Source of the DNA: Pichia kudriavzevii
Taxonomy: Eukaryota > Ascomycota > Pichiomycetes > Pichiales > Pichiaceae
Length of the DNA stretch: 64,000 nt
Assembly: GCF_003054445.1 (NCBI RefSeq)
Contig: NC_042506.1
Location: forward strand, 379,501 to 443,500
Direction: 5' to 3'
Shown here: positions 31,140-63,702 of the stretch, one piece after another
How the letters are laid out: the number at the start of each line of letters is the position of its first letter
How positions within the stretch are numbered: the first letter of the stretch is position 1
Program-made: the position numbers and the translations under genes
The notes under the pieces: generated by a model
What the model saw: the letters and a program-made list of their open reading frames with translations, nothing else
The model's database searches: none
Told to the model about the DNA's origin: nothing

Positions 31140-31211
31140 GGGGCTATGGCTCAATGGTAGAGCTTTCGACTCCAGATCGAAGGGTTGCAGGTTCGATTCC
31201 TGTTGGCCTCA
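31140..31211 (+). tRNA. tRNA-Trp (CCA), no intron
   Basis: A complete 72-base cloverleaf folds with a 7-bp acceptor stem (two G-U pairs), D arm GCTC/GAGC, anticodon stem TTCGA/TCGAA with loop CTCCAGA (anticodon CCA at 31172-31174), T arm GCAGG/CCTGT with loop TTCGATT, and discriminator A73. The internal promoters are clear: box A TGGCTCAATGG and box B GGTTCGATTCC. A T6 terminator lies at 31221-31226. The S. cerevisiae tRNA-Trp genes have an intron after position 37; here the anticodon loop is uninterrupted. Confidence 0.95.
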
Positions 31212-31577
31212 ATTTAACACTTTTTTGGATTGCGTTTTGATCACTATTTTTCTACCATTTTGTAGTTTCAAATGTAGATTAACTGAGCTATGTTTGATTA
31301 TGAATTGCCCTTTAGTTTTCATACAACTTAAAGCGTTTGTTGTGATATACGTTTGTTGCATTAGGGGTCAGAGAATAAAGATTAGATTAAGATACTTAAA
31401 GCAGTTATTTGCCAGGGTATTTTTTTCTCAATTATGAACTTTTTTTTTTCGCTTAGTCGTTGGAAAGTGTTGGAAGTTGAAGGAAGAGCACAGTAATTCC
31501 ACTAGCAGAAGAATTCCGATCTCCCTTTTGAACTTCCATAATACAGTATTCGATCAAACTTTCACTGTATTGATAAG
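31212..31577. other. Intergenic, tRNA terminator and mS38 promoter
   Basis: Contains the T6 Pol III terminator at 31221-31226 and a T10 run near 31440-31449 that probably belongs to the mS38 promoter. No gene is seen. Confidence 0.6.
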
Positions 31578-34045: not shown

Positions 34046-36829
34046 ATGGATCCTTTTAACAATGTTCTTACAGCCAAGGTGTTCGAAGGATCTTCTACAG
34101 ACTGTAATAAAGCCACGAGTAATAAGGAACAAAAGGGTCAAAGAAACGTTAAGAAGAAGTCAATTCACACGAAGAGTAGCAAAAGAACCTCCAATGGATG
34201 CCTCACATGCAAGTTAAGGAAGAAGCGATGCGATGAAGTTAAGCCTGTATGTGGAGACTGTCTCAGACTTGGAAGAAGATGTGAATATATATCGGATGAT
34301 ATGACAGAGGAAGAGATACATAAATTGAGGGAAGAAATGAGTTTGATTGAAGCCGATAGCAAAACAAGGAAGAGGAAAAAAAAAGTAAAAGAAGAAGGAC
34401 CCAATCCTCTAAGTGCAACGAAATATGAGAACACTAGCAATGGTACCGATGATATTGGCCTTTGTAGTTCAACAAAGAAACACATCAAGGCGAAAAGAAA
34501 ACCTAGAGTGAAAAAGGCTAGAAATGGAAAAGTGGTTTTCAATCCATTTGCGATGAATCTTGCCTCAATTACGCATTCACCCGTATTTAACGGCTTACAA
34601 TCGTCGGCGTTGCTACCTAAACATATAACTAGTTCGCCATCGTTCACCAACATAACCGAGTTACCGGATACAGTCACAAAATTAAATTTTAATGAATCCA
34701 ATATACTGCTCTCGTCCAAGACAGTTAGCACATCCAAGGTTGAAAAATCATTTGAAGGTTTGAATACTTTAACTAACGGCAATGCTGCTTCCGACATACC
34801 CAACAGTACTAACTCTACTGGAAATAGCAATAACCCATATACCCATAACGACCAACCAAAAAATTTGAATGGATTATCTCCTAACTTTCTGGCTAATATT
34901 GCGGCGGTTACACCAATACCAGAAATTCCTACTTTAGAGCAAAACTCACCAGCTCCGCTACTTTCATTGAATGATGATTTCGAGTTAGGTCTGTCGGAGA
35001 TGTTTCCTGCAAATTTCTCTAAACTAATACATGAACATTTTAAGAAAGAAATAAACGGAAAATTAAGCAATCAACTGGATACTGATACAAGCTCAAAGGA
35101 ATTAGATTCACCAACTCCGCTATCGACGATTCAGGATGTTTTATCATTTTCTCCAAGGTTTCAACAGATTGATGTTCTTGATGAAGACTTTAACACAGAC
35201 AATGGGAAACATCCACATATTAAGAGCAGTTCAAAGGAAATTTTAGTAGATCAAAGTATTGGTTATTATCATGTTGGACACCACAGATCAACCACTGAAC
35301 CACCTCAACTCTACACAAACCCTTCAATCGTGACGAACACTACTCTGGCTAACCTCTCAACTATGGGTCAGACTTTGTATCAATATTATCGAGACAAGCT
35401 AAGTTTTATAGTATGCTCAGCTCCCAAAACAGAGAACATGTACTTGAATACCTTTTTGCCAATGGCGCATGTTGATAAATCTGTTTTGTATGGGTTATTA
35501 GCATGGAGTGCGTTTCATCTCGGGGGCCGAACCATGGAGAGACAGGGTAATTACTATATTAAACTTGCAATTGATGAATTTTATAGGCGTCCTATAATAG
35601 GTCGAGAGGTAGCGGGAAACCTTAAGCTGGTCTACGATGAGGTTGATGAAACTGATGAAACAATTATCAAGGAATGTATCACTGATATTGATGCTGAAAG
35701 TTACCAGGATTTGCAACTGTCTCAGCTGAGCCGGGATGACCTGATTAATACGAGGTTGGCAGCATTCTTAATTCTTTGCGGTGTCGAAATATGCAAAGGT
35801 GATGTTTCTAACTGGTCCAAGTTTTTAATATATGGGGCAGAACTAATTAAAATGAAAGGTGGGTTAGAAAAGTTTAATGAAAGTAAAGATGAACATTTTT
35901 TGGCGACAAACTATGCTTATCATGATATTACAGCGATTCAAGTAGTTGATGACAGAACAATACGTTTCGATATACAGGAATATGAGAAGATGTGGTTAAA
36001 ATCCAATGAACTAGGATTTACAGATCCCCAACACGGTATTTCATCACCAGTTTTCAAAATTCTTGCAGAAGTTAACAAACTAGTCCTTGATGTGCAAAAG
36101 TCAAATAAAAGGTTAAAGAAGCAGGATATACAAAGAATCGGGAAAGATGATAAGACGAAGTACAAATCAGTGTCAGAATCACCAGATGAGCTGCGTCACG
36201 GGCTTGACGAGGAAGACTGCTGGGTATCCGAGACAGGATCATCAATATCTTCGAATATTGAAGAGTACTTCTTAAGCGAACAATTATCGACAGTGGATAC
36301 TGAAGATTCTATGGGTGAAAGATATGACCAAATTCTTTATATGGAGGAGCTAAACACAATAATGAAGGAATGCTCAAATATTGAGCAGAAAATTAATGAA
36401 GCTAAGCCAAAATTATCACCGTATCTTACAAATAAAGAGTTAGAACTGCAGCTAACGATGTTTGAATGTTTCCAAGTGACCTCTAAAATACATTTAAAGC
36501 AATCAGTTCAACGTATGAACTCTTCATCGATTGAAATTCAATATTTAAATAGTCAATTAATCAAACTATTGGATGTTTTGTTAGGTTCTGAAGTTGAAGC
36601 TTGTCTTTGTTTACCTATGTTTATTGCTGGGATGAATGTTGTTACACAGAGCGATAGGATCGGCATGATTAGGCGGTTTGACTCTTTCATCAATAGGTAT
36701 AAATGGAAGAATGTTACTCGCTGTAAAATTGTTATTAGGTATATTTGGAAGTTAAATAACAATGGTGATAGGTTTATTGATTGGTATTCGGTCGTGAAAA
36801 GACTTGGATGGGATTTGAGTTTTGCGTGA
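34046..36829 (+). CDS. Zn2Cys6 transcription factor, Lys14/Fungal_trans_2-like
   Basis: The 927-residue protein has an N-terminal zinc cluster, residues 52-79 (CLTCKLRKKRCDEVKPVC, then GDCLRLGRRC), followed by a basic linker and a short coiled coil. The C-terminal half (about 430-927) is a regulatory domain with LSFIVCSAP, LPMAHVDKSVLYGLLAWSAFHLGGR and the closing WYSVVKRLGWDLSF. This layout matches the Fungal_trans_2 class. Lys14 and Arg81 of S. cerevisiae are of this kind, with Lys14 my first guess, but orthology is not shown. Confidence 0.8.
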   Translation: MDPFNNVLTAKVFEGSSTDCNKATSNKEQKGQRNVKKKSIHTKSSKRTSNGCLTCKLRKKRCDEVKPVCGDCLRLGRRCEYISDDMTEEEIHKLREEMSLIEADSKTRKRKKKVKEEGPNPLSATKYENTSNGTDDIGLCSSTKKHIKAKRKPRVKKARNGKVVFNPFAMNLASITHSPVFNGLQSSALLPKHITSSPSFTNITELPDTVTKLNFNESNILLSSKTVSTSKVEKSFEGLNTLTNGNAASDIPNSTNSTGNSNNPYTHNDQPKNLNGLSPNFLANIAAVTPIPEIPTLEQNSPAPLLSLNDDFELGLSEMFPANFSKLIHEHFKKEINGKLSNQLDTDTSSKELDSPTPLSTIQDVLSFSPRFQQIDVLDEDFNTDNGKHPHIKSSSKEILVDQSIGYYHVGHHRSTTEPPQLYTNPSIVTNTTLANLSTMGQTLYQYYRDKLSFIVCSAPKTENMYLNTFLPMAHVDKSVLYGLLAWSAFHLGGRTMERQGNYYIKLAIDEFYRRPIIGREVAGNLKLVYDEVDETDETIIKECITDIDAESYQDLQLSQLSRDDLINTRLAAFLILCGVEICKGDVSNWSKFLIYGAELIKMKGGLEKFNESKDEHFLATNYAYHDITAIQVVDDRTIRFDIQEYEKMWLKSNELGFTDPQHGISSPVFKILAEVNKLVLDVQKSNKRLKKQDIQRIGKDDKTKYKSVSESPDELRHGLDEEDCWVSETGSSISSNIEEYFLSEQLSTVDTEDSMGERYDQILYMEELNTIMKECSNIEQKINEAKPKLSPYLTNKELELQLTMFECFQVTSKIHLKQSVQRMNSSSIEIQYLNSQLIKLLDVLLGSEVEACLCLPMFIAGMNVVTQSDRIGMIRRFDSFINRYKWKNVTRCKIVIRYIWKLNNNGDRFIDWYSVVKRLGWDLSFA

Positions 36830-39273: not shown

Positions 39274-39740
39274 ATTCGGCACGGGTATTGTGAATATTAG
39301 AAAATCTTCCAATTAATAGGAGCTATTGGTAATTCTCTCCAATAACAGAAAACACAAACAGAGAAGAAGAACTAAGAAACACGGAGTAAAGAAAAGGAAG
39401 AAAAGTAGGAGATCCAAACAAGTCAAGCAATCCTAACATGCACACACCAACAGGCGCTTCTCTCTCACTTTTTCTCACTTTCTCTTTCACTCTTTCCCCT
39501 TCCTCATTGACGTGCATGTTTGACACTGAAATTCTGCTTGAAAATGTTGAACTAACCGCTTCACCCTAACTCCAGCAAAACAGGTTCGGGGGAATTCACT
39601 TTTTCTCCTTTATTACCGGAAAGGGTAACTTCTTGTTTCCCAATGAAATTCCGGTGCATTCTATAATGTTTGTAATGCGCGCGTTCATATTCATTACCGC
39701 TGGGAAGAAAACATTAGATAGAAAAAGGGAAGGGGAAGGA

Positions 39741-39782
39741 GGAAGGAGGAAGGGGGGGGGCCTCCTACAATCCCCCCCCTCC
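39741..39782. repeat. G-run/C-run inverted repeat
   Basis: A purine-rich GGAGGAAGG tract leads into a G9 run, followed by a CCTCC and, a few bases later, by a C8 run and CTCC. The strands can pair as a GC hairpin, and the G tract could also form a quadruplex. Confidence 0.8.
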
Positions 39783-40393
39783 ATCTATAGACTTATCATT
39801 TATACATCATGATTGAGTAAAAAATACAGGCAACTTTTCAATCTTATCCTAAATAAAAAGAGATATGATGGGATTTCAGATGTGGGAATTGGGGAAGATC
39901 TGTAATAATACGCTGCAACGTTGCCTGATGGAAATAGTAGTCATGAAGTTCATGCCAATTGGAGACATCCATTAGAAAACCATGCCAACTCGGTTCCGCC
40001 GTCTTCCGTTATTTCCCGCGTTCTCTGCTATTTGGCACTATTTGGCGCTATTTACTACTAAAATTACAAGTTGAGCCGATATTTGCTTTTCTTCATAGAG
40101 TGGGCTCCCTGCATTATTTTTTCCCTCTACCTTGATGCCGTCTATTTTATTTTTTCATTCTAGAAATAAATGGCGCGCATATAGAGCGAGTTTTGCACAT
40201 TGGCATTAGAGACAACAAGGAAAGGAGAAAAATAGTGTAGTTTGAAATTTCAAGTGTCGGTGTAATTACGTAAATATACCTACTATTTTTTTTTTTGATT
40301 GTTTGCGTCTTGAGGTCGGTTCGGTCTTACTAGCTACAACCGTCAATTACTCCGAGTTGGACACATCACGTGACACACCAGCTCCTAAGACAG

Positions 40394-40456
40394 TGCCGTC
40401 GCCGTCGCCGTCGCCGTTGTTGTTGCTGTTGTTGTCGTCGCCGACGCGACGGCGAT
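40394..40456. repeat. Trinucleotide repeat (GCC GTC)/(GTT GCT) array
   Basis: About 60 bases made of GCCGTC units that change to GTTGTTGCT units and then to GTCGTCGCC. It is a microsatellite. It makes an arginine/cysteine-rich false reading frame. Confidence 0.9.
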
Positions 40457-40652
40457 GAAGATGGAGATGCAATGGCGTGGCTGAGAACTGTTGGTTGCGG
40501 CCGTTTTTGTTTCTATGTGTTTAGGACTTGCCGAGCAGAGCAAACTCTGAAATGTAAGATGTATGGGAGAGTCAGTGAGTATATGTGGCGTGTGACTATC
40601 AAAGCAAAGGGTGGTTCATTCTCCCTGGGAACACCCTTTGGAGCGCCTCTAA

Positions 40653-40668
40653 GGGGGGGGGGGGGGGG
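40653..40668. repeat. G16 homopolymer
   Basis: Sixteen consecutive G on the plus strand. It may be hard to sequence correctly, so its exact length is uncertain. Confidence 0.9.
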
Positions 40669-41188
40669 TATTTGTCAACAATAGCACATTGATCTCTTCC
40701 ATTCCACCTGCCTCAACTGCAAGATGTGGAATTGTGGAAGGACAATGCCTTCTTTCAAACACATAGTAACCTCTACTAGTGGTTGTGCGAAAAAAGAAAC
40801 AAAAAAGAGTCACTGTGTGTGGAGACTTAGCTGTAGTATATAGGGTGCATCCATGTGTGTTAAGGTTTCCACCCAATACGTTACTATACACATATGGAAA
40901 CGTGTCAACACATGTAGTTTTGGTTACACCTTTTTGCATTTAGCCAATGGAGGTTTTTTTTTTCCTACATTTGACACACCGGATGAGAGTTGGTTTCTGA
41001 ACATGGAATCTCCACGCTGCAAAACCCCGGGAGAACAGCGTCGAGACAAGGAAAGGGAGACTCAGCAAAGCCGGGATACGCATATATGTCACAAAATGCG
41101 AGATCATAATTGCTATGGCCAGCAGCTGGAGTGTGGGTTTGAGGGGGAGAGGAAAAAAATGGCTATACTAGTACTACCAATGGATCCA

Positions 41189-41981
41189 CCGGAAAAACTC
41201 CACCCGTTTTCTTGACCTCCCCACACTTGTACACTATATTGGTGCCGGAAAAATTCTCGCTTCCTCTAATGGGACAGGCAACTTTTTTTTTCTTTTTTTT
41301 TCCACCTTGCATGGCATTACCACCCGGGGAAGAAACCCGTTTGGACTCTGTCCTTTATGGCGTTTACCTGTACTTATCCAATAGGCGCGGATTTCCATAC
41401 GAGGCCGATCATTTTGGTATGGGCCAATGGATGGTTTGGAAAAACCCTGCGGGGATGGGAAGGATCTCCCGATTATTTTCCTATTACCATTTCTAAGGTG
41501 ATATTACGATGGAAAAGTTTTTCCGGCAGCGCCCATGTACAATAGATGCACAAGCATACCTTAGTGTAGAGGGTTTTAGACTTGTAGCTGGAGAGCAGAT
41601 ACAAAAAGCAGGGGCTGCTTTGGTTTAAAAAGCTAACTGTATATGTACTACAGTAAATTGGACAGTACTGTAATTCATATTACTGTTCCTATGCTCTGGC
41701 AAAAGTGTGGCTGGAACAAGATGCAGTGATACGAAGTAATGTAAGGTGATTTGTGGTGTTTGTTTTTTTCTGGGGTACCAAAACGGACACACAATTATAT
41801 GCCGGTAACACTACGTATGGCTCGGTGGAGAGGTCCCCGGGTGGGCTTGGTGGAAAAACACGGCCAGGAAGCTGGAAAAACTTGCCATTTTTCTGTTTTT
41901 TTTTTATGTCTGGCGCATTTTCCGAAAACCGAAAAATTGCGGGGGGAAAATGCATACTATTTGCCACGTTCCGGAAAAACC
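41189..41981. promoter_or_regulatory. Cluster of (CC)GGAAAAA(C) elements upstream of MIG1
   Basis: CCGGAAAAA occurs at 41189, 41245 and 41971, and on the other strand at 41516-41526. GGAAAAAC also occurs at 41438, 41852 and 41874. This is seven copies in about 800 bases, too many for chance and spread rather than tandem, so it looks like a binding-site array. The bound factor is unknown. Confidence 0.6.
41932..41944 (+). promoter_or_regulatory. Mig1-type site
   Basis: An AAAAATT stretch directly followed by GCGGGG fits the known Mig1 consensus (AT-rich flank plus G/C, C/T, GGGG). It lies about 375 bases upstream of the MIG1 start, which would allow autoregulation. This is inferred from the motif only. 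Confidence 0.45.
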
Positions 41982-42043
41982 TCGTTCCCACTCCATGGGG
42001 TAGTTGTGCCAAATTGCAAAGGTTTGCATTGAAGTGAGCTGGA

Positions 42044-42050
42044 TATATAA
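42044..42050 (+). promoter_or_regulatory. TATA box of MIG1
   Basis: TATATAA about 270 bases before the start codon, ahead of a pyrimidine-rich leader. This spacing suggests a long 5' leader containing the tandem duplication. Confidence 0.5.
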
Positions 42051-42076
42051 AGCATACCACTTCCCCCCTCCGTTAC

Positions 42077-42244
42077 ATGTTTATCCTCCGCATCTATGTT
42101 TATCCTTGTTTCCTTTCTGTTCTGACCTTCTTTTTTCCTTTCCGTTCTGCCTTCTGTGGTTTGTTTTTCCTTTCCGTTCTGACCTTCATTTTTTCCTTAC
42201 CTTTCTGCCTTCTGTGGTTTGTTTTTCCTTTTCCCGGATTTTGA
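42077..42244 (+). other. Possible 55-codon upstream ORF in the MIG1 leader
   Basis: An ATG at 42077 opens a frame of 55 codons that ends at TGA 42242-42244. It runs through the pyrimidine-rich duplicated tract and encodes an almost purely hydrophobic Phe/Leu-rich peptide. It could control translation if the leader starts before 42077, but low-complexity origin is also likely. Confidence 0.3.
42120..42236 (+). repeat. Tandem duplication, period about 57, pyrimidine-rich
   Basis: A unit that begins TTCTGACCTTC and contains TTCTGCCTTCTGTGG and a GTTTTTCC motif occurs at 42120 and again at 42177, with a few changes and small indels. It lies in the MIG1 leader. Confidence 0.85.
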
Positions 42245-42319
42245 ACTTGTTCCATCTCTTTTTCTTCTTGAGTTGTGTTCATTCCTATACCTTCTAATCA
42301 ACGCTTTAGCGATTTAACA

Positions 42320-43477
42320 ATGCAGGTGGCTACTTCAACTAGGTCGTCCAATTCAAAAGACGACCGTCCTTACAAATGCACGATGTGTGATAAATCCTTC
42401 CATCGTTTAGAACACCAAACGAGGCACATCAGAACCCATACAGGTGAAAAGCCTCACAAATGTACCTTCGAGGGATGTCCAAAGAGGTTCTCTAGATCAG
42501 ATGAATTAACCAGACATTTGAGAATCCATACCAATCCAACAGTAAGGAAGAAGAGGAAACCAAGAAAAACCAAATTGCAAATGCAAGAGGAACGTATGAG
42601 ACTGCAAAGGGAAAAGGAACTTAAAGAACTAGAAAATCAGCGACAAAGACTACAGGTGGAACAGCAGGAAAGGGATTTACAACAGCAGCATTATCCTCAA
42701 ATAATGCTCAACAATGAAAAGGTGTCTCCAATGTCCCTACCTCCAATTCTTAGTACCAACCATCAGCTGAATGCATCAAAACCATTATTAGTGAGAAACT
42801 TGAGTGCTAATTCTTTGCCATCATATTATCCACAGCCTTCACTTCAGGTTCCCTCAAATACCCAAATGCCCCCAGTTCCACCCTCTTTAATTTCCCCATA
42901 TTCGGCTAGTCAATCTTTGAATAAATCATTTTCCTCATCCAGAACAAACAGCACAAACTCATTGGCTTCTCTGGATTCTTCCTTTGGCGCTTCATCAAGC
43001 ACTACTACGTTGTCCTCCTTCAATAACAAATCATTCATGCCTTTGTCAAGGTACGGCTCGTTCTCAAGGTTGAGTAACACTCCTTATAATTCAACATTCT
43101 CATTATCTACAATGCTGAATAGCACACCTTCATCTCTCTCAATTTCTGATGAACGTCCAACAAAAAGATCAAGACCCAATTCTCCTAAAAATTCGTCCCT
43201 TCGTCCCATGTTTCATGTATCTTCGCCTTCTTCAACACCAATTTCAACGCCTCATCATTCACCAAAGTTGAACCCTCAAAATACCACTACCAATAATAAG
43301 ACGGTATTACCATCTATCAAATCTATCATTAATAATGATGATTTTGGTAACTATATGAATCACACTCTCTCCTCGAGAAATCTGATGATTCCTAACGTTG
43401 CTACTTCAAATGATGAAACAGTGAAAAATATACTAAATAGAGGCATGTCTCATGATATGCTCTCTCTGAGAAGATGA
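42320..43477 (+). CDS. MIG1: Mig1/CreA-type C2H2 glucose repressor
   Basis: The 385-residue protein has two C2H2 zinc fingers near the N-terminus (about residues 18-73): [19 protein letters not shown] with [13 protein letters not shown], and [14 protein letters not shown]. The finger sequence is that of the Mig1/CreA/EGR group which reads GCGGGG sites. A basic region (KKRKPRK) and a glutamine-rich coiled coil follow; the rest is Ser/Asn/Pro-rich. ATG 42320 lies just before the fingers; the frame upstream opens only on GTG. The repressor shuts off genes for other carbon sources in glucose. MIG1, MIG2 and MIG3 cannot be told apart by eye; MIG1 is the likeliest. Confidence 0.9.
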
Positions 43478-43672: not shown

Positions 43673-46294
43673 TTAAAGCCAGTTAAATTTCTGAAATTCA
43701 AATAATTGATCGATATCCTCTTTAATAGAATCATTACCCTGAAAATAATATTTATTAAATATATCTTGAAATAACTCTTGTGTCATTGGATCCACTGTAC
43801 CCATTCCGTCTGGCATTGTTGTATTGCTTATGTACGGATCGACATTCATAAATGGTTGCTGCTGTTGTAGGTGTTGCTGCTGCTGTACCTGTACATTGTT
43901 GTTTCCATTACCATTATTCCTTTCTTGTGCCAAGTAGGACGGTTTCATAGGCAATTTGCTTGTCAGATAAGCCGGCGTACCATGCGGTGATTGCGCATCC
44001 ATCGAGGAGTCAAACAATGTGCTATTTTTGGGAGTAAAAGTCGATGTCTTTTTCATATTTAGGTATGGGAATGCTCGTGGTTGATGTCGTGTTTCAACAT
44101 TTGGCATGGTATCTGAAGTATTCTGTTCGGTATACACATTAGAATGATCCGAGAAGCTTGTCAATTCTTGAGGATGCTGTACACGTTGCTTCTTATGCCG
44201 TTGTTGTGGCTCTTTTTCCTGTTGTAGATGCTGATCTCGCTGAAGTTGTTCATACTGACTTTGGGATGCAAATAGTGTTTGTTGGTACTGATTCTGTTGT
44301 CCAGTCTGCTGCTGCTGCTGCTCTTGTTGTTGTTGATGTTGTAGAAATTGATTATTCAAATATTGCCGTTCATTTAGTTGAGGATTTAGTGGCTGCCATT
44401 GCTGTTGAAATATTAAATTTTGTTTCAAGTTTTGAAGTGGTGAGGGGACATCATTGAATATATTATTTGGATCGGTGGGAGTTTGAGATAAACGTTCTTT
44501 CTCATCAAGAGACTTGATGATAATTGCAGAGATAACAATGTAAAGATTCTTAAATTTGATAAAGGAAGGATAAAAGTCGATCATGTCATTCATAACATTC
44601 AAAGTGATAGAGGAGAAACTTTTGAGAGTGGTGGAATCTTTTTCAATTTTCCAGCAACAAAATATCATAGTTAATCCAATATTAACTAAGTCATGTAAAG
44701 AAGCGGGTTTCGTCTTCCATGTGGATCCCTTTGCTGTTAAAAATTTGAAAGATTCCACTGCTTGCAAACAATGGTCTCTACAAATTTTTAAAGACTCGTC
44801 ATTTGGATTAGGAAAAGAAGGGGAGGGTCTGTGTAGAATGATGGATCCAATATAAGACTTGATTTTGAGTTCATGATAAAATAGACAAGTATGCGGCAAT
44901 TCAGATTCAATGCGAATTAGCAAAGATGATATTGATCGTTCTATTTCAGTTTTATAGCCAATTATTGTATTCATATCTAACCTGGGAGTTGAGCCCTTAG
45001 TCCTTGAAATATAAACGGTTTCTAATAGCACACCATAAATCTCATATAATTCGATTGATAACAGACACGGAGTCAAATGAATTACATTGTAATTCTTAAA
45101 AAACGAATTCCTTGTACCTACAAAGTCACTCCTATCATCAATGGTAGCATAAAACTCAAAGGTATCGTCTTTAATCATTGATGGCCTTCCAATTTCAATA
45201 TTATGCATCCTAATAGTCAAACCTCTACCATATTTGACAGTATTGCCCCTTTCAAGTAAAAAGGAAGACCAAAAAAGCCGCTTCCGAAGTTCGATTTTAT
45301 TCTCAGATAAGTTTTCAAGATTTTTAGTAAGATGGAGTTCCAATTCGATAGCTAACGCTATTAAGTATCTTCCCATATACCAGAAGTCACCATAATCATC
45401 TTTAAATACATCGGTATTGAGTTTCCAAATCATCAATAGCAATAGTTCCTGTAAACTATCGATTGATCTATTAGTTATGGTTTTCTCCAAATACCTAAAA
45501 GCCGTATTATAGAATTCAATGGGTTTATATTGATTATAATGTTTGGCAATCTCACAATCTTTCTCACCTCTTTCAAAACCAATTGCAATTACCATGAAAA
45601 CCACATATTTATCATGGTAAGTTAAACTCTGTGGAGATTTGTAACAAGTTTCAAAAACTTCAAGGAAGTCCTTCAATACAAAAACAGGATAGCATGGGTG
45701 TACTGTGTCCATGTAAAAATTTAATGACATCTTACCAACATTGTACGGTGGTAATGGGGAACATGATGTCGAGCCGAGTGATGTTACATGATCGTACCCA
45801 GAGAAGTCAGAAGAGGACATATTACTCAAATCATCTAATTTCTGTAAATGCATCTGCTTCAAGAATGCCTTGGCAAAGTTAGAGCCTGTTGCAGCACCAA
45901 TATACTTGCCTTGCAAATCGTCGTTACCTGATGTGGTCAACGTTCCAACCTCATCACTCAATTCATCAAGTGTTTCTGGTTCCTTGTGCACTGATTCAGG
46001 GGTTTTCGACTCATCGGTAACTTCGGTGTTGTTTGGCAAACCCAATGTAGTCAGATTGCTATTTGATCCCACCCTTTTAGATTCCAGAATCGCTTCCAGC
46101 TCTTTTATTTGAGTAATAATTGTTTCAATGGAGCTATAACTATAAAGAACATTATCAGAAAGATCACATGACAACCCATATTTTTTGCATCGGGTACAAC
46201 TAGGTGCCGTACCTACACACTTCACTTTCTTCTTCTTACAGTTCGAACACGGACGTAATGAGTCAGGAGTAAAGTTATTCAGCAATGTTTCCAT
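43673..46294 (-). CDS. Zn2Cys6 transcription factor, divergent from the racemase gene
   Basis: The 873-residue protein begins at ATG 46294 (upstream the frame opens only on TTG). The zinc cluster is at residues 16-43 (CSNCKKKKVKC, then C-x2-C and final C). A middle homology region runs from about 190 to 560, with DKYVVFMVIAIGFERGEKD and AFRYLEKTI. The C-terminal third is rich in glutamine, a typical activation domain. It is clearly a paralogue of the regulator at 48480-50595, and the two flank the racemase gene. It shares the 840-base upstream region with that gene, so it is the likely regulator. Its inducer is unknown. Confidence 0.85.
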   Translation of the reverse strand: METLLNNFTPDSLRPCSNCKKKKVKCVGTAPSCTRCKKYGLSCDLSDNVLYSYSSIETIITQIKELEAILESKRVGSNSNLTTLGLPNNTEVTDESKTPESVHKEPETLDELSDEVGTLTTSGNDDLQGKYIGAATGSNFAKAFLKQMHLQKLDDLSNMSSSDFSGYDHVTSLGSTSCSPLPPYNVGKMSLNFYMDTVHPCYPVFVLKDFLEVFETCYKSPQSLTYHDKYVVFMVIAIGFERGEKDCEIAKHYNQYKPIEFYNTAFRYLEKTITNRSIDSLQELLLLMIWKLNTDVFKDDYGDFWYMGRYLIALAIELELHLTKNLENLSENKIELRKRLFWSSFLLERGNTVKYGRGLTIRMHNIEIGRPSMIKDDTFEFYATIDDRSDFVGTRNSFFKNYNVIHLTPCLLSIELYEIYGVLLETVYISRTKGSTPRLDMNTIIGYKTEIERSISSLLIRIESELPHTCLFYHELKIKSYIGSIILHRPSPSFPNPNDESLKICRDHCLQAVESFKFLTAKGSTWKTKPASLHDLVNIGLTMIFCCWKIEKDSTTLKSFSSITLNVMNDMIDFYPSFIKFKNLYIVISAIIIKSLDEKERLSQTPTDPNNIFNDVPSPLQNLKQNLIFQQQWQPLNPQLNERQYLNNQFLQHQQQQEQQQQQTGQQNQYQQTLFASQSQYEQLQRDQHLQQEKEPQQRHKKQRVQHPQELTSFSDHSNVYTEQNTSDTMPNVETRHQPRAFPYLNMKKTSTFTPKNSTLFDSSMDAQSPHGTPAYLTSKLPMKPSYLAQERNNGNGNNNVQVQQQQHLQQQQPFMNVDPYISNTTMPDGMGTVDPMTQELFQDIFNKYYFQGNDSIKEDIDQLFEFQKFNWL

Positions 46295-47134
46295 CTGCAA
46301 AGAATATTCAGCTGTTTTCAAGGTTCGTTTTTTTCAGGAAAGTAGAACAAATTATCACCTTTATCGTACTATCTAAAGCACAGTAAAGTGAATCCTCTAG
46401 TATGGGGTGCAGGTTTCTCTTTACAGTATGGTCCTATGAGATAGAAAGGCAATAGATGATAAATACAAGGAAATGCAAACTTGTATGTGCATTTAATCTA
46501 ATGTACATTATATTTCGCACACAATGGAGTACCAGCCCGGCAGAAACTCTCCGAATTCATGGCCACATCTCCTCCTTCTTTTCAATAGTGTTGCATGTAT
46601 CTGCAAGGTGCAGTAAATTCTCATCTTAATGGAAATTCTTTAACTTTATACACTATCCAGCTTCCAGTCACGTGACACACCGTTTCAGTCTTGCATTTTC
46701 TTTTGTTCTTTTTCTTTCTCTCTCCCCCCCACCATCTCGGAAACAGCGATCGGGAGGACCGAAACTTTTCGGTAGTTTCCTTATCCTATCTGATCCCCCC
46801 ACGATGCAACCTCCAATGCCACAAATCCAACACATGGAAGGACAATCCCGGTTTCAGCAAGGCGTTTTATGAAAAAGGGAACAAGAGAAGGTGATGCTAT
46901 TTTGCTTAAACCGCTTAACTCTTCGTTGGACTGAAATGTTTTTCGTGGTTAGGAAAATATCTATTTATCTGGTCTTAAAAGCTTAACAGAGAGAAGTCCA
47001 ATTGCAGCTCCTATATACATAGATATACATCAGAGGTGTTCTGATTTTATTATTTCTCAAACACAATAGTTGAAATAAAATAAAACATAATAAAACAGGA
47101 GCAGTAGGGCTATCAAAATTGAAAAGAGTATATT
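46295..47134. promoter_or_regulatory. Divergent control region, Zn2Cys6 regulator / racemase gene
   Basis: 840 bases between the two starts. A perfect CGG-N10-CCG palindrome lies at 46538-46553; this spacing is the one that S. cerevisiae Put3, the proline-utilisation activator, binds. A second CGG group is at 46738-46772 (CGG-N10-CGG, CGG-N5-CCG). A CACGTG box lies near 46671. These are typical targets of zinc-cluster regulators. I cannot say which of the regulators here uses them. Confidence 0.65.
46538..46553. promoter_or_regulatory. CGG-N10-CCG zinc-cluster binding palindrome
   Basis: CGG at 46538-46540 and CCG at 46551-46553 are separated by ten bases. Zn2Cys6 dimers read inverted CGG triplets, and the spacing selects the protein. 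Confidence 0.7.
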
Positions 47135-48199
47135 ATGGACACGATTGCAATCACCACTATTGAAACCCATATGTGTGGTGAACCCTTTAGGATTCTAACC
47201 AGTGGATTGCCGAAAAGAATCCCGGGGAAATCACTATTAGAGAAAAGAAATTACTTACAGAATAACTATGACTTTATAAGAAATACCCTGATGCGAGAAC
47301 CAAGAGGACATTACGACATGTTTGGAGGGTATTTGCTGGATCCAGTTGATGAAAAAATTGATGCCGATGCTTCTGTGATATTTGTCAATCCGGATGGATA
47401 TACCGATCAATGCGGCCATGGAATTATAGCGCTGGTTACTACGCTAATCCAACAAGGCTGGGTGGATAAATCCAAATACACATTAAAGCCAAACCTAATG
47501 AAAATTGTTCTGGAGACCACCGTTGGCGCCATTGAAACTCATGCATGTTGGAATGGCAGCAAAGTCGAATACGTTGAGTTCAAGAATACGCCAGTTTACA
47601 TCCTCTATAAAGAAGTTCAAGTACAAACGAGCATTGGATTATTAACAGGTGATATTGTCTTTAATGGTGCTTTCAATTTTTTTACTGAGGTTGCTGAAAA
47701 TATACTGAGAATCGAATCACAAAATGCTATGAAACTGATGTCTCTCGGAGCCGAAGTTAAAAAGAAAATCCAATCCATGAAAAGTTTAGACATACGAAGC
47801 AAAGACTTTCCTCAAATTAAAGGGTTGCATGGTGTGGATTTTATTAATGTTTACAATAAAGAGAACATCTCTGACAACGTAAGCCCTAATCAGAAGTCTT
47901 GTTTGGTATTAGGTGTGAAACAAATTGACAGGTCTCCGTGTGGCTCTGGAACAGCCGGACGTACAGGTTTGTTATACTTGAAGAACAGATTCAATGGAAA
48001 GTCTTGGTTTATTAATGAATCTATTATAGGGTCCTCTTTGAAATCCCGTGTTGTGGAGACGGGAATAAAGGCCAACGGAGGCGATTACGACGCATGTGTG
48101 GTAGCAATTCAAGGTACAGCAAACCTTCTTGGATCTTCTAATTGGAATATAGATTTGAATGACAAAATTGGGACTTACGGGTTTATCATTCCTCACTGA
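47135..48199 (+). CDS. Proline racemase-family enzyme (racemase/epimerase or 3-hydroxyproline dehydratase)
   Basis: The 354-residue protein belongs to the proline racemase family, with MREPRGHYDMFGG near residue 53 and both catalytic segments. The first cysteine (C93, in DQCGHG) and the second (C269, in DRSPCGSGTAGRTG) are present. Human trans-3-hydroxy-L-proline dehydratase has Thr at the second site, so a C/C pair points instead to a two-base racemase or 4-hydroxyproline epimerase. The substrate is still uncertain. The gene lies between two paralogous regulators. It could let the yeast use D-proline or hydroxyproline as a nitrogen source, which is inference. S. cerevisiae has no equivalent that I know of. 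Confidence 0.85.
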   Translation: MDTIAITTIETHMCGEPFRILTSGLPKRIPGKSLLEKRNYLQNNYDFIRNTLMREPRGHYDMFGGYLLDPVDEKIDADASVIFVNPDGYTDQCGHGIIALVTTLIQQGWVDKSKYTLKPNLMKIVLETTVGAIETHACWNGSKVEYVEFKNTPVYILYKEVQVQTSIGLLTGDIVFNGAFNFFTEVAENILRIESQNAMKLMSLGAEVKKKIQSMKSLDIRSKDFPQIKGLHGVDFINVYNKENISDNVSPNQKSCLVLGVKQIDRSPCGSGTAGRTGLLYLKNRFNGKSWFINESIIGSSLKSRVVETGIKANGGDYDACVVAIQGTANLLGSSNWNIDLNDKIGTYGFIIPH

Positions 48200-48479
48200 T
48201 ATTGACAGCAAGATTTAAAGATTCTAATAAACCAGCTTTTATTGTTGCATCTACTGTAACTTTTTTTATATTCGAAACTAATCCAATACTTGTGTTCGCA
48301 TAGTTAGTTTTGTAAGATTGGAATATTTTTATAAACTTTGGTAACTACAGTATGTTTATGATAAATCATTAACTAGCTAACGTTCCAAGATATTTAAGCA
48401 CGAATGTTGATATCTTAATATAACTTTGACACGGAAACCTACCATTGTAAAGAAGAAGTTTTCAAGAGAGATGAATATA

Positions 48480-50595
48480 TTATGTGGAAAACATTTCACT
48501 TACAAATTCAAATTCTTTGCTATTAGGCGTGTTTTGCTTGAATACATCAAAAAGCTCATCAGTGAATCGGTCATTAAACTCAGTAAAGTTCTCTCTGCTG
48601 AAGCTGTTCATTGTTGGATACTGAATTCCTGTGATAATTCGTCGAACTTGCAAGGGAATATGATGTTTCAAATATTCGATCCTTTCAGCAGAACTTTTTT
48701 TTGTGTTCTCTAGATTGTCAAAGCCATCAATAACAACCGAAGAAAGAATGGTGAATAGGTTCTTAAATTTTGCAAATGCAGGATAATATTCAAGGATGAA
48801 ATCAATTATATTTATAATCTTCATGGAATAATCTTTGAGCACATTAGAATTGGATTCTGTTTTCCAACAGGAATATGCTAAAGACAACGACGATATCATT
48901 ATGTGATCAGCGCTAGTCGACTTTACTTTATAGCCATGCTCAATTAGCCAAGTATAAGAATCGATGCAGGCTATTGAACTGTTTTTGCAAGTAACAACAG
49001 ATTCAATAGTTGGTTTAGGAATTGAGGGAGAAGGCCTGTTCATTAAAACTGAAGCAATGCAATATTTCACCCTTAATTGGTGAAAACATGCTAAATCAGA
49101 ATTGAACTGATCCTTCACCTGACCCATCCATTCGTTCAAAGAAGATTCTAGCTTACCTTTGTAAGAAATAAATTCCTGTTCAGTCATTTGACCCTCACCT
49201 CTAGATCGCTTTACATATATATTCTCGAGAATATCGCCGTATATCTCAGATATACTAATTAATAGCATAGCAGGTCTAAATTGGATTTTGTCGTATATTT
49301 TTAAATCATCAGATGTTGCAAAACTATCATCAATAATATAATCTTCTTCAATTAGTTTGGGCAAGGGCGTGTCTATAGCTTGTTTTCTCAACGATAAACT
49401 TCTTGAAAATTTGATTGCAATTTCACGATCTAGAATGTATGTGCACCAAAATAACCTGTTCCGCAACTCATTCTTGACCGCACCAAAATTCCAAGCAGGA
49501 TTGTACCTATGCACTCCTAATTCCATCGCAAATGACATTGAAAATCTTACCAAATGCCATAGGTCTTCAAAATTTGTCTGTATTATTGTTGTATTTAATA
49601 TCCAAATAATAACTAACAATAAAGCCTGTAACGATTTCTCTGATCGTTGTGATATAATCTCCTCCAAATATCTGTAAGCGGTGTTAAAATAATCCAAAGG
49701 TTTGAATTGTTTTGCATAACTTGACAACTCTTCATCCTTTTCTCCACGATCCAAACCTATTGAAATAACAAGAAAAAGGGTGAATTTCTCATTCAATGTC
49801 ACCTGCCTTGGTGAAGAATACATCTTTAGTACCGTCAATTTGAGATCTTGCAGCACTAATATTGGATAAAGAACATGAATATAATTAATATACTTCAGCA
49901 CAGCAAATCGTGTTATCCTATACGGAGGCAATGTCGCATACCGCTGTGATATATTCATGTCAAAATTTTCAAACTCATTTTGGGAACATTTCATTTCACC
50001 AAGTTTACCCAAACTCAACTGTCTCAAAAAAAGTTTGGTAAACTGTGAACCAAAGAAGCTGGGCAGACTACCCAAATTTACCTCATTGCTTTGTGTTATA
50101 GTCATACTTCCAACTTCTGCAGATAAATCTTCGATGGTTAGCCGTTTTTGTCTTTTCTCCTTCCCTGAACCTGTAGTAGAAGAAGATTCCGAAATGTTTA
50201 CTTCGGAAGTAGTCTTTGAAGTTCCACACCTCTCACTATGACCCGAATCCCCGTTGTTTACCGAATTATGGTCCATCTCCATGGAATTGGATCTATGTAC
50301 TATTGTTGGCGGTGTGGTTGAAAATGAAACTTCGGACTTCAATTTTTCAAGTTTCTCTATCAGAGAAACAACTGTTTTTTGCGTATAATAGATGTTTTCC
50401 TTCATGGAGCAGTCCAAATCTGATTTTTGGCATCTTTTACATCTAGGTAGTTCACCAGTACACTATATATTGGGATGGTTAGTATGAAATGTTAGTATTA
50501 AGTACCTAACTGAGAGAAACAAGGACAAGACTTACTTTAACCTTTTTCTTTTTGCAACATTGACACGATTTAACAATATCTGGTTCTGGGAACAT
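48480..50595 (-). CDS. Zn2Cys6 transcription factor, paralogue of the 43673 gene (spliced)
   Basis: The long open frame (down from 50462) lacks the N-terminal zinc cluster. Exon 1 (50536-50595, 20 codons from ATG 50595) joined across intron 50463-50535 restores it: C-x2-C-x6-C-x6-C-x2-C-x6-C, with the intron between the second and third cysteines. The product is about 680 residues. The middle region (LGEMKC..., VTLNEKFTLFLVISIGLDRGEKDEE, AYRYLEEIISQRSEKSL) is paralogous to the neighbour at 43673. There is no glutamine-rich tail, unlike the neighbour. The gene converges on the racemase gene. Confidence 0.85.
50463..50535 (-). other. Intron inside the zinc cluster
   Basis: Read on the minus strand it begins GTAAGT (50530-50535) and ends TATAG at 50463. 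Two copies of TACTAAC lie near the 3' end, at 50478-50484 and 50491-50497. Removing 73 bases keeps the frame and completes the six-cysteine cluster. Confidence 0.9.
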
Positions 50596-50943
50596 GACTG
50601 GTTGAGTGATGGTATCAAAAGACGGGGCGGGGCAGTTTCATGCAGAAGTAAATCTTTCGCAAATGCCGTTAAGGATTACCACAATACTTCGCGGTCGATT
50701 TTCTGTTGATTATTTCCACCGGAAATGATTACCGGAAATGGACATAGTGAACTCTGGTCCCTATCTTTCATACGATATCAGGTACATTACACAATGGTGC
50801 TTCACTGTTGCAGTAGAGCATTTTTTTATAGTATGGGACCGCAACTCTAGAAAACTTCTGAAAGATTGTTGCATGGTCTCTAAAGGCAAGAGGATTTAGA
50901 TAATAAGACACTTCAGGCCGAGTTGTGTACGTGACTTGCAAAC
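50596..50943. promoter_or_regulatory. Divergent promoter between two Zn2Cys6 genes
   Basis: 348 bases. A direct repeat CCGGAAATG occurs at 50719 and 50732 (13-base spacing). No other element was recognised. Confidence 0.6.
50719..50740. repeat. Tandem CCGGAAATG pair
   Basis: Two exact nine-base copies, 13 bases apart, in the middle of a divergent regulator promoter. They are likely protein-binding sites. Confidence 0.8.
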
Positions 50944-53073
50944 ATGGATAAGAAACACGCAAAACAAAATATAAGGAAGTCAATAAGGTGGGGTAAATCT
51001 TGTTCAAACTGCAGAAGACGTAAAGTTAAATGCAATTTTGAAATACCCTGTGATAGATGTATTACTCGAAACCAAGCTCAAACATGTACTCGTGATCCTA
51101 TGATTTTTGATGGTATGTTAGTCAAGAATGAGGAACGTGAATTAAAATTTTCCCGGGAAAACGAAACACTAAAGAACAAAATCAAAGAACTACAAGACAC
51201 CATTCAAAAACTAGTAAACAATAAAGAAAGTTTAAAATCGTTACAACCCAATGAAGGAAATGATACTAGACGAAGTAAATTTGTTTTAGTAGAACACTTT
51301 CAATTTGTTGAAAAGGAGAGCCTTGTAATAGATCCAATGTTCAGCAAAGATTGGGGGAGTTACTCAACAACAATCAGCAAACTCAAGAGGTCATTCGACA
51401 GAGGATTTATTTCTGAAACACAATCAGATATGGATATTCAGGCTGGTTATGATACAGAGGACTGGTTAGCGCTCAAACATAGCGATTACTCGTCTTACAA
51501 AGGCGAAGACTTAAAGAGTAAATGCTGGCAGTTTGAGCTAGACAAGATCCAGAACTTAACAAAAAAGGATTGTGACATACTAATTAACTCTGGGCTAAAC
51601 ATAATTTATCTTTACCCTATTATTGATAGACAAAAATTTATGTGCAAATATAACTCATATTGGAAAAGAACTGGCATAGAAGAACAACATCTCTCTGAGA
51701 AATATTGCAAATCCAGTGATACCTATCTCTTTCTCAGCTTAATGTATTCCCTATTATGCTTGGGTATTTATCAAACCAACGAAAACGAAAAAAGTTTGCT
51801 GTCCTTCACTTCAGAAGATTGGGAAATTTACCCGAAAGCAATGTTTGGGTCTTCACTTGAAGCTCTATACCGAGGAAGATTTATGACACATCCACGTATT
51901 GAATCAATTCAAACTATTAACATTCATCGGATATTGTTGGGGCTGCTAAGTGGTAAGACTTTGTCCAATAACTTGCTATGCGTCTCTTTTTATTTGTCGT
52001 ACAAGTTGGGTCTTCACTATAGTTGCGATTCAATTGCAAGGAATAACATGTGGACATTATTAACATTTGACTGGTATGATGACCATGATAGATATCCACT
52101 TTCAAACATGAGTACGTACACATCTTTTACTCCTCCAAGTAAATGGCTAGATGAAGGCAAAAGTATTATTGATTGGTCAACCTATTTTTTGAACTTTCAG
52201 ATCAGAGTATCTTCACTCAAAAGGTCGTTTTATTATGAGCAGTCTAAATCAACACTAAAAGCCCTAAAAAGGGCAAACCTTGAATTAGAATCCTTTTTGG
52301 AAGAGGTGTCAGAAGAAATCAAAAGAAATTGTATCATGAAGCACCCCAATATGCCTAACGAAAGTCTTCAGCAAATCAGGTTCCACACAATGTTAATAAC
52401 ATATCATGAAATTCTGATTGTTAATTGTAGAATGTCCACCTTTTTGACTTATAATGAATGGACTAAAAATAACAGACATGTATGTCTAAACAGTGCAACA
52501 TATATCTTAAGACTTTTTGTCTCCCAAAATATGCACCTTCATCACAAAGCCTATTTTAGCATTTGCGATATTTCTACATTTGCTGCAATTTTCTTGATCA
52601 TAGACTCTATGTATTTTATTAGTCAAACAGACTTTGTTGAAAAGTACCAGCCGTTAATAAAGAAAACAATATCGGTTTTGTATTCCTTTTCATCACCTGT
52701 GAGAGGTGCTACTAGGGGAATTTATGTTATTAAAAAGATGATGCTTTTATGTCAACAAGAGTTCAGTTCGGGTCAAAAGAAAGTATGCCATCTTTTGTCC
52801 AATTCTACCCCTAAAATCCTCTCAGATTATAACATGAAAAGTGGCATCCACTTTGAAAAAAAACTGCCTCAACCATGCAATAAAGTGATAGAGAATGACA
52901 GTTCCAGCAACACACTTACAGATATCTCTAATATTGATAGGACACACAATCAACGTATTGCAAAGTCAACTGAGCTGCCGAATCCTATAATGGAAATTTT
53001 AGAAGATAGAGGCTGGACAAATTTTATTAATTCAATAGATGATTTAGCTTTATCATTTGATGTAAATAACTGA
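50944..53073 (+). CDS. Zn2Cys6 transcription factor
   Basis: The 709-residue protein has a zinc cluster at residues 20-48 (CSNCRRRKVKC, then C36, C39, C48) and a coiled coil at about 60-95. A fungal regulatory region follows, with ILINSGLNIIYLYPIIDRQKF and SYKLGLHYS. It resembles other zinc-cluster regulators only generally, and no closer name is justified. Its start faces the 48480 gene across 348 bases. Its stop lies 21 bases from the convergent SQS1 stop. Confidence 0.85.
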   Translation: MDKKHAKQNIRKSIRWGKSCSNCRRRKVKCNFEIPCDRCITRNQAQTCTRDPMIFDGMLVKNEERELKFSRENETLKNKIKELQDTIQKLVNNKESLKSLQPNEGNDTRRSKFVLVEHFQFVEKESLVIDPMFSKDWGSYSTTISKLKRSFDRGFISETQSDMDIQAGYDTEDWLALKHSDYSSYKGEDLKSKCWQFELDKIQNLTKKDCDILINSGLNIIYLYPIIDRQKFMCKYNSYWKRTGIEEQHLSEKYCKSSDTYLFLSLMYSLLCLGIYQTNENEKSLLSFTSEDWEIYPKAMFGSSLEALYRGRFMTHPRIESIQTINIHRILLGLLSGKTLSNNLLCVSFYLSYKLGLHYSCDSIARNNMWTLLTFDWYDDHDRYPLSNMSTYTSFTPPSKWLDEGKSIIDWSTYFLNFQIRVSSLKRSFYYEQSKSTLKALKRANLELESFLEEVSEEIKRNCIMKHPNMPNESLQQIRFHTMLITYHEILIVNCRMSTFLTYNEWTKNNRHVCLNSATYILRLFVSQNMHLHHKAYFSICDISTFAAIFLIIDSMYFISQTDFVEKYQPLIKKTISVLYSFSSPVRGATRGIYVIKKMMLLCQQEFSSGQKKVCHLLSNSTPKILSDYNMKSGIHFEKKLPQPCNKVIENDSSSNTLTDISNIDRTHNQRIAKSTELPNPIMEILEDRGWTNFINSIDDLALSFDVNN

Positions 53074-62283: not shown

Positions 62284-63702
62284 TCAAATACAATGGCTAT
62301 TACTAGGTGAGCTAAAAGTAGCATGTATTGTCTGTGCAGTTGATAAAACCATCACCAGAAACCCAAATGTTGCACAAGCGTAATATGGAATTTGCTGCTT
62401 CAGAGTATGGTTTCTCTTAGTTAGTTTGTTGTAACAGAGTGGTGGCAAAATATAAGCTATCAATGAACCAGATGTAGCACCTACTATCTCTAACACAGCG
62501 CCCAAGTTACACGTGTTGAGAGCAATTATTAAAGGAATTAAAATTAGGATTGCTGTGGTTGCCAAATGTTGCAATTTAGAGAAACCTTGAAATTTGTAGC
62601 TTGGATTCAAATTGGCTTTATAAATTATATATAGGTCCTTAATAACCTCTCTTAAAACATAAACCTCCAATGGTAAAGTTGTTATCATATTCATACCAAA
62701 GCACAATCTTGCAACATTCACCAACAAATCGTCACTTGGGAAATTGTTTAAGATATTTCCTTTAGTTTTATTACCAAAATTTAGAAATCCACATACGCCC
62801 ATCAGACAACAAACAAATCCAGATATAGCACATGATATATGTACGACTCTGTTGAATCTGTCCAACGTAGGTGTGTTTATTGAGTCATATATGAATGTTG
62901 TATTATGATGACAAACTAAGGCAAAGGAGATCACACTTACAGCTTGAAAAAATCCAACATTAACAAAATAGCTCAATGTTGGTATTGTTCCTTTAAAGTC
63001 AGACGATACAAAGGGCGCTTTGAACACCACTATTGAAATGATGATGGACATACTGACTAGTGCAAGTCCGCTTGCTTTTGCAAGTAGTGAAATATCCTTA
63101 ATTATAGACAATGGAAAGCAAACAGCACAAACGCAGAAAGCCATAATAGAATTTCTACTAAGTATGTACGATAATATTGCAGAGTTGTTGATCTCATTGG
63201 CAAAAAGGGGCCTTATAACATGAGGAATAGAGTCTCCAATAATAATTATGAACCCGATACTGCCACCAAACGCAAATAGACCTTGTGACAACAAAACAAC
63301 TACCTTACCTAGCTTGCCATACGTATATGTGACAAAACCTGTATAGGTTTTCGTCCCAGACAACTTGGTATTAATAATGATTAAACGGAGTGTCCAATCA
63401 TTTACTATTGTCAAAACGGTCATTAACAACACACCTAAAAATAATCCTGAATTCAGAAAAGCCATGGGTATCCCCACTATACCAGCCCCTACTATCGAGT
63501 TGGTCATATTGAAAAATGCTGCCTTTAGATCTGATCCAGATGATGGCGTCACCACGTCCATACTCAATGGAATGTTATCATTATCGTTACTACTTTCATT
63601 GCTTGTTTCTGACAGAGGATCAAATATACTTATTTCGTCTTGTATTTGATCATTATATTGTGGACCACCATCCCCAACTAGATCACTGTATTCTCTAGAC
63701 AT
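62284..63702 (-). CDS. AVT2: Vacuolar-type amino-acid transporter, Avt2-like
   Basis: The 472-residue protein belongs to the AAAP (SLC32/36/38) family. It has an acidic N-terminal tail and about 11 membrane spans; the first has FFNMTNSIVGAGIVGIPMAF and the second ends in NDWTLRLI, as in S. cerevisiae Avt2 (480 residues). The N-terminal tail is unconserved, as usual. Substrate is not known from sequence. It converges on TOF1, 81 bases away. Confidence 0.8.
   Translation of the reverse strand: MSREYSDLVGDGGPQYNDQIQDEISIFDPLSETSNESSNDNDNIPLSMDVVTPSSGSDLKAAFFNMTNSIVGAGIVGIPMAFLNSGLFLGVLLMTVLTIVNDWTLRLIIINTKLSGTKTYTGFVTYTYGKLGKVVVLLSQGLFAFGGSIGFIIIIGDSIPHVIRPLFANEINNSAILSYILSRNSIMAFCVCAVCFPLSIIKDISLLAKASGLALVSMSIIISIVVFKAPFVSSDFKGTIPTLSYFVNVGFFQAVSVISFALVCHHNTTFIYDSINTPTLDRFNRVVHISCAISGFVCCLMGVCGFLNFGNKTKGNILNNFPSDDLLVNVARLCFGMNMITTLPLEVYVLREVIKDLYIIYKANLNPSYKFQGFSKLQHLATTAILILIPLIIALNTCNLGAVLEIVGATSGSLIAYILPPLCYNKLTKRNHTLKQQIPYYACATFGFLVMVLSTAQTIHATFSSPSNSHCI

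Follow-up and report, generated by a model that had tools for sequence, protein, structure and literature searches.

A racemase-family gene between two zinc-cluster regulators

In a 64,000-nucleotide stretch of Pichia kudriavzevii DNA (the window, on contig 1 of the five that make up the 10.79-Mb genome searched), a gene of the proline racemase (Pro_racemase) family lies between two genes for Zn2Cys6 regulators, here called R1 and R2. The open reading frame (ORF) list gives the order R1 (minus strand), enzyme gene (plus strand), R2 (minus strand); R1 and the enzyme gene are divergent, separated by 840 bp, and R2 and the enzyme gene are convergent, separated by 280 bp. A first-pass annotation of this DNA had placed the same three genes here, with one regulator divergent from the enzyme; ORFs and family matches confirmed these placements and identified the divergent regulator as R1. 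The features of the locus are as follows:

43673..46294, minus strand: R1, intronless Zn2Cys6 regulator, 873 aa (ORF; PF00172, PF04082; cysteine spacing read from the sequence)
46295..47134, no strand: R1-racemase intergenic region, 840 bp, presumed shared promoter (coordinates; map of CGG/CCG triplets)
46738..46753, plus strand: CGGAAACAGCGATCGG, candidate direct-repeat zinc-cluster site, CGG-N10-CGG (one of two CGGAAA-N7-CGG matches in the window)
47135..48199, plus strand: proline-racemase-family enzyme, 354 aa, intronless (ORF; PF05544, E 8.4e-65; predicted model)
47321..47323, plus strand: Phe63 codon (aligned with Phe102 of the Trypanosoma cruzi proline racemase)
47411..47413, plus strand: Cys93 codon, first catalytic Cys, in CGHG (alignment)
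47939..47941, plus strand: Cys269 codon, second catalytic Cys, in DRSPCGSG (alignment)
48480..50462, minus strand: R2 exon 2, with the second half of the zinc cluster, linker and Fungal_trans domain (PF04082; R1/R2 alignment)
50463..50535, minus strand: R2 intron, 73 nt, within the zinc cluster at KKVK^C (GTAAGT, TACTAAC and TAG signals by eye)
50536..50595, minus strand: R2 exon 1, 20 codons (60 nt), first half of the zinc cluster (read from the sequence)
50720..50735, plus strand: CGGAAATGATTACCGG, the candidate site's other copy, within the promoter common to R2 and the Zn2Cys6 gene at 50944 (triplet map, motif count)

The enzyme is matched by PF05544 over its whole length (219 bits against a cut-off of 27) and is the sole protein of this family found in the genome; fold matches agree, and its predicted structure has a pLDDT of 92.2 and a pTM of 0.90. 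R1 matches both PF00172 (E 2.8e-08) and PF04082 (E 6.4e-22), and its six-cysteine cluster is intact, with spacing x2-x6-x6-x2-x6. The spacing in R2 is identical, once the intron is removed: exon 2 carries the PF04082 match, and the short first exon completes the cluster (read by eye), which makes the previously annotated R2 end at 50595 correct. The two zinc clusters have the block CxxCKKKKVKC in common, and the proteins are 31% identical over 611 aligned columns (E 2e-114), an alignment that contains the ERGEKD/DRGEKD and FRYLEKTI/YRYLEEII blocks from which their relatedness had first been proposed. Within the genome they are each other's best non-self match (336.7 and 338.6 bits, with next-best scores of 79.7 and 46.1). 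By these comparisons, R1 and R2 are true paralogues, the product of a duplication.

Linkage of enzyme and regulators in related yeasts

Linkage elsewhere was judged by consecutive locus tags and by equal size of the longest contig in protein tables. Consecutive tags join a regulator and the enzyme in Pichia inconspicua (CANINC_001484, of R2 type, and CANINC_001485), Ogataea philodendri (OGAPHI_005412 and OGAPHI_005413) and Candida arabinofermentans (CANARDRAFT_28955 and CANARDRAFT_28954). Enzyme, R1-type and R2-type rows occur together on contigs of 12,161, 12,605 and 27,954 bases, and in Pichia californica the enzyme shares a 5,676-base contig with R1. In all, six further assemblies show the enzyme linked to a regulator, and in three of these both regulators are present; Ogataea-type yeasts have a single regulator. 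Considering only contigs of at least 10 kb, six of the ten yeast racemase rows have a regulator row on a contig of the same size, with the species of the window as a seventh case. The corresponding control gave no match to a regulator row among 46 listed racemase rows from outside the yeasts, and over all 99 such outsiders there were two coincidences, on contigs of 3,123 and 7,186 bases. Linkage recurs in other Pichiaceae by both tags and shared contigs. No Saccharomyces match appeared among the 19 and 26 rows of regulator relatives, in a search limited to relatives sharing exact words.

History of the regulators

Two trees were built for the regulators, one of 36 rows that included two distant outgroup rows (P0139 and P0156 left out) and one of 32 rows (P0121, P0139, P0140, P0154, P0155 and P0156 left out). 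In the latter, the 12 R1-type rows form one clade with support of 100/100, and four Ogataea-type regulators, one per species, form a separate clade. The R2-type rows fall between these two without resolving into a single clade, and constraining them to be one was compatible with the data (p-AU 0.24). By identity, the Ogataea regulators resemble R2-type rows such as P0134 (47-51%) more closely than R1 of the window (34-37%).

Protein models of an R1-type row (P0122), an R2-type row (P0142) and an Ogataea row (P0151) all break at the same KKVK^C junction, which suggests that the zinc-cluster intron is ancestral and was lost in R1 of the window. An origin of the intronless R1 as a retro-copy was considered and dropped because the three break alike; with R1-type P0122 broken there, it is unneeded. 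The simplest reading of these patterns is that the common ancestor had one regulator next to the enzyme, that this regulator was duplicated on the Pichia line, and that R1 then changed faster. Rooting the tree on Ogataea would make the duplication Pichia-specific; rooting on the R1 branch fits the same splits and would allow a duplication before the split, followed by loss in Ogataea. The tree of both regulators supports one old duplication, and fits the local duplication around the enzyme that the first-pass annotation had suggested, with its timing (within Pichia, or earlier with loss in Ogataea) hinging on the root.

A candidate site in both regulator promoters

The pattern CGGAAA-N7-CGG has two matches in the 64 kb, one in each regulator promoter, the first of these being also the promoter of the enzyme. 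None of 100 shuffles of the window reached two matches. Of 2000 shuffles of both regions, 57 shared some CGG pair and none shared one whose first three spacer bases agree. When 253 pairs of intergenic stretches within the window were compared, a pair class was common to 17, and agreement at three bases was reached by three, including the R1/R2 promoters; the other two involve the stretch at 39274-42319. That stretch, about 3 kb long and just ahead of a C2H2 zinc-finger gene, has no ATG-started ORF of at least 150 aa, a GC content of 0.43 and many CCG triplets. An inverted site of the PUT3/GAL4 type was considered and set aside: a single CGG-N10-CCG occurs in the R1-racemase region and is not common to the R2 promoter. 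A third Zn2Cys6 gene, of a different kind (50944-53073, plus strand; PF00172, no PF04082 match), is divergent from R2, with 348 bp between them, and the R2 copy of the candidate site falls in its promoter as well. We regard the candidate site as a lead for binding and, from linkage and the common site together, infer that R1 and R2 would control the enzyme.

Active site and origin of the enzyme

The best 120 of 1253 matches to the enzyme were listed, comprising 21 yeast rows and 99 outsiders. All 21 yeast rows carry the pair Cys93 and Cys269, a mark of proline racemases in the relevant portion of PMC4364671, and all 21 carry Phe63 at the site of Phe102 in the T. cruzi enzyme TcPRAC, where Phe and its role are likewise a racemase mark (PMC1964878, in excerpt). 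Among the 99 listed outsiders, by comparison, the Cys269 site is Thr in 93 and the Phe63 site is Tyr in 98. The site of TcPRAC Phe290 is Leu259 here (Leu in 16, Phe in four and Met in one of the 21 yeast rows), and the enzyme falls short of the curated proline racemase model NF010576 (229.4 bits against a cut-off of 556). Because Leu259 replaces the second Phe, we do not class the enzyme as a ProR member, but describe it as one that would work like a proline racemase. The enzyme would most plausibly act as a racemase or epimerase supplying L-proline catabolism, the role that fits best.

Racemase trees of 69 and 38 rows, drawn from the 120 listed and the window, place the 22 yeast rows on a long branch, whose position among outsiders the trees do not settle. 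Among the outsiders listed, the closest come from bacteria and from one Mucoromycete. A single clade of yeasts and Lichtheimia was not rejected (p-AU 0.095), and yeasts with P0022, a Cys-Cys row, form a branch with support of 95/78, whereas one group of yeasts with all four Cys-Cys rows (P0022, P0045, P0097 and P0111) was rejected (p-AU 8.7e-05). GC content at third codon positions is 0.38 in the enzyme gene, slightly above the 0.325-0.363 of seven neighbours. Given the long branch and its unsettled placement, we claim no donor for a horizontal transfer. P0022 itself, a protein of 335 aa from a 1.7-kb contig, stands closest to the yeast enzymes among the listed outsiders (42-44% identity) and combines the Cys-Cys pair with Tyr; it may reveal the order in which the two active-site changes arose.

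Metabolic context and neighbouring genes

The genome has one match for proline dehydrogenase and at least six DAO-family genes (loci L017-L020, L022 and L023), including a tandem pair, at C3:999386-1001917 and four further places. Their proteins carry an H-x-Y-G motif and end in sequences such as SKL, AKL and PKL, which we take to be D-amino-acid-oxidase-like and to resemble peroxisomal signals, respectively; on this reading the genes form a rich D-amino-acid oxidase set. Nothing in the genome matched PF02423, PF02615 or PF00701 in family searches; to these families belong, according to part of PMC4113996, the Δ1-pyrroline-2-carboxylate (Pyr2C) reductases and Δ1-pyrroline-4-hydroxy-2-carboxylate (Pyr4H2C) deaminase, enzymes of hydroxyproline routes.

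Around the locus, the C2H2 zinc-finger gene (42320-43477, plus strand) adjoins R1, and a further Zn2Cys6 regulator with Fungal_trans_2 (PF11951) lies 10 kb away (34046-36829, plus strand). About 12 kb from R2 lies a gene for an Aa_trans-family (PF01490) amino-acid transporter (62284-63702, minus strand), and a tRNA-Trp without an intron per ARAGORN is found at 31139-31212 (plus strand).

A proposed regulator-enzyme module and its alternatives

We favour, with moderate confidence in the explanation as a whole, a Pichiaceae module of regulator and enzyme that probably serves as a small switch for the use of unusual proline forms. Cys93 and Cys269 of the cofactor-independent enzyme (a two-cysteine site of the proline racemase superfamily) would carry out 1,1-proton transfer, most likely between D-proline and L-proline and possibly on hydroxyprolines, and not dehydration. 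The product would enter the ordinary L-proline route via proline dehydrogenase, and so we propose that D-proline or related imino acids would become usable as nitrogen. R1 and R2 would sense an imino acid and, bound to CGG-type sites in the promoter of R2 and in that between R1 and the racemase gene, activate the enzyme gene as well as one another. The module would have arisen from a single ancestral regulator beside the enzyme, as in the Ogataea-type state, by a duplication after which R2 kept the ancestral intron and evolved slowly and R1 diverged faster. Of the components, the neighbourhood is real and conserved; the activity of the enzyme is uncertain and probably racemase-like.

Several observations weigh against this explanation. 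The pattern CGGAAA-N7-CGG was picked after inspection and is not enriched genome-wide, where it has 29 matches and the reversed pattern 38, and the plain CGG-N10-CGG is less striking, with seven matches in the window, a number reached by four of 100 shuffles. The regulator tree can be rooted either way, and the distant outgroups do not fix the root. In 16 of the 21 yeast enzymes, Leu259 stands where proline racemases have their second Phe. In P. californica, R2 (C6P40_000725) sits on a contig of 29,617 bases and the enzyme (C6P40_003917) on another. On contigs of at least 10 kb, enzyme rows P0013, P0018 and P0021 have no regulator partner of equal contig size and six of ten R2-type rows have no racemase row of equal longest contig; the regulator rows without an equal-size partner are P0134, P0136, P0138, P0141, P0143, P0147, P0150 and P0151, all on long contigs. 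Since the protein tables give just the longest contig per 90% cluster, such unpaired rows are not decisive. Regulators without the enzyme beside them, which the first-pass annotation had regarded as telling against a regulon, were not found as such, but the unpaired R2-type rows and the separate P. californica R2 leave that point partly in question.

These same unpaired contigs and the separate P. californica R2, together with the fact that the third zinc-cluster gene, too, has the candidate site in its promoter, are what favours the best-surviving alternative, namely that the regulators are neighbours of the enzyme by descent and control not the enzyme but other genes, or only each other. Nevertheless, linkage persists in six assemblies across Pichia and Ogataea-type yeasts despite deep protein divergence, and we consider an absence of control doubtful.

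A second alternative concerns the reaction and holds that the enzyme is a trans-3-hydroxyproline dehydratase. The nearest curated model is of this type, although its cut-off was missed (295.1 bits against 540), as are most of the closest listed outsiders; the yeast rows are named trans-L-3-hydroxyproline dehydratase in databases, and the Thermococcus litoralis dehydratase 6r76 is among the top fold and sequence matches. Against it stand the Cys, not Thr, as second catalytic residue and the Phe, not Tyr, at position 63 in every yeast row, and neither known Pyr2C reductase family was found in the genome. In work attributed to Visser in 2012, a Thr-to-Cys change reportedly restored epimerase activity to the human enzyme. 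The human Tyr76, which corresponds to site 63 by the DMY motif, forms a hydrogen bond in the closed form (PMC9309405). Taken together, these points make dehydration unlikely. An equally improbable variant is a hydroxyproline 2-epimerase passing cis-4-hydroxy-D-proline to peroxisomal D-amino-acid oxidases, for which such epimerases' use of a Cys-Cys pair (PMC4364671, in part) and the six or more DAO-family genes speak, but Phe63 differs from the Ser or Val of characterised hydroxyproline epimerases (PMC1964878, in excerpt) and the PF00701 deaminase of the next step was not found in the genome.

Returning to the favoured module, a bolder version of it is possible, though we advance it only tentatively: in the Pichiaceae a dehydratase-type enzyme may have turned racemase again (Tyr63Phe, Thr269Cys), independently of the textbook racemases, and come under a dedicated regulator, a copy of which then arose on the enzyme's opposite side, giving a one-gene D-proline/hydroxyproline switch run by duplicated regulators. 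There, the diverged sisters might pair into a heterodimer, or one might activate and the other antagonise. If true, the locus would be a test case for the conversion of a dehydratase-type enzyme into a racemase by two visible residues and for division of work after duplication of a regulator beside its target, and would give a substrate and regulon to a gene labelled dehydratase by analogy in databases, in a yeast genus of industrial and clinical use. Among titles and abstract openings of the open-licence PMC literature, we found no description of the locus and none combining Pichia kudriavzevii with proline racemase.

Comparison with known systems

A Zn2Cys6/Fungal_trans regulator beside its target enzyme is a general fungal layout. 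The present locus is alike in its Zn2Cys6 and PF04082 domains and in having one divergent regulator, and differs in that two paralogous regulators flank a single one-gene target. A regulator beside its likely target is ordinary; the duplicated regulators and the active-site change amid dehydratase-like relatives are the unusual elements.

Compared with the proline racemases of T. cruzi (TcPRAC, 1w61) and Acetoanaerobium sticklandii (AsProR, 7pb3), the yeast enzyme is about 32% identical, mostly has Leu259 for Phe290, and has Gln, not Met, before the first Cys. By whole sequence it is closest to dehydratases (T. litoralis 6r76, human 7qpo, and Bordetella and Streptomyces rows), a likeness seen in the nearest curated model and in 37-42% identity to most listed outsiders, yet Cys269 stands for Thr and Phe63 for Tyr throughout the 21 yeast rows, and no known Pyr2C reductase family was found in this genome.

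The proline racemase homologue of Candida parapsilosis (Fitzpatrick 2008, PMC2459174) is likewise a racemase-family gene in a yeast. The excerpted text of that paper proposes a bacterial acquisition, with nearest relatives in Burkholderia at 66%, and reports no homologue in the other Saccharomycotina it examined in 2008. The C. parapsilosis enzyme has an active-site Thr, whereas the Pichiaceae clade is a separate lineage with Cys.

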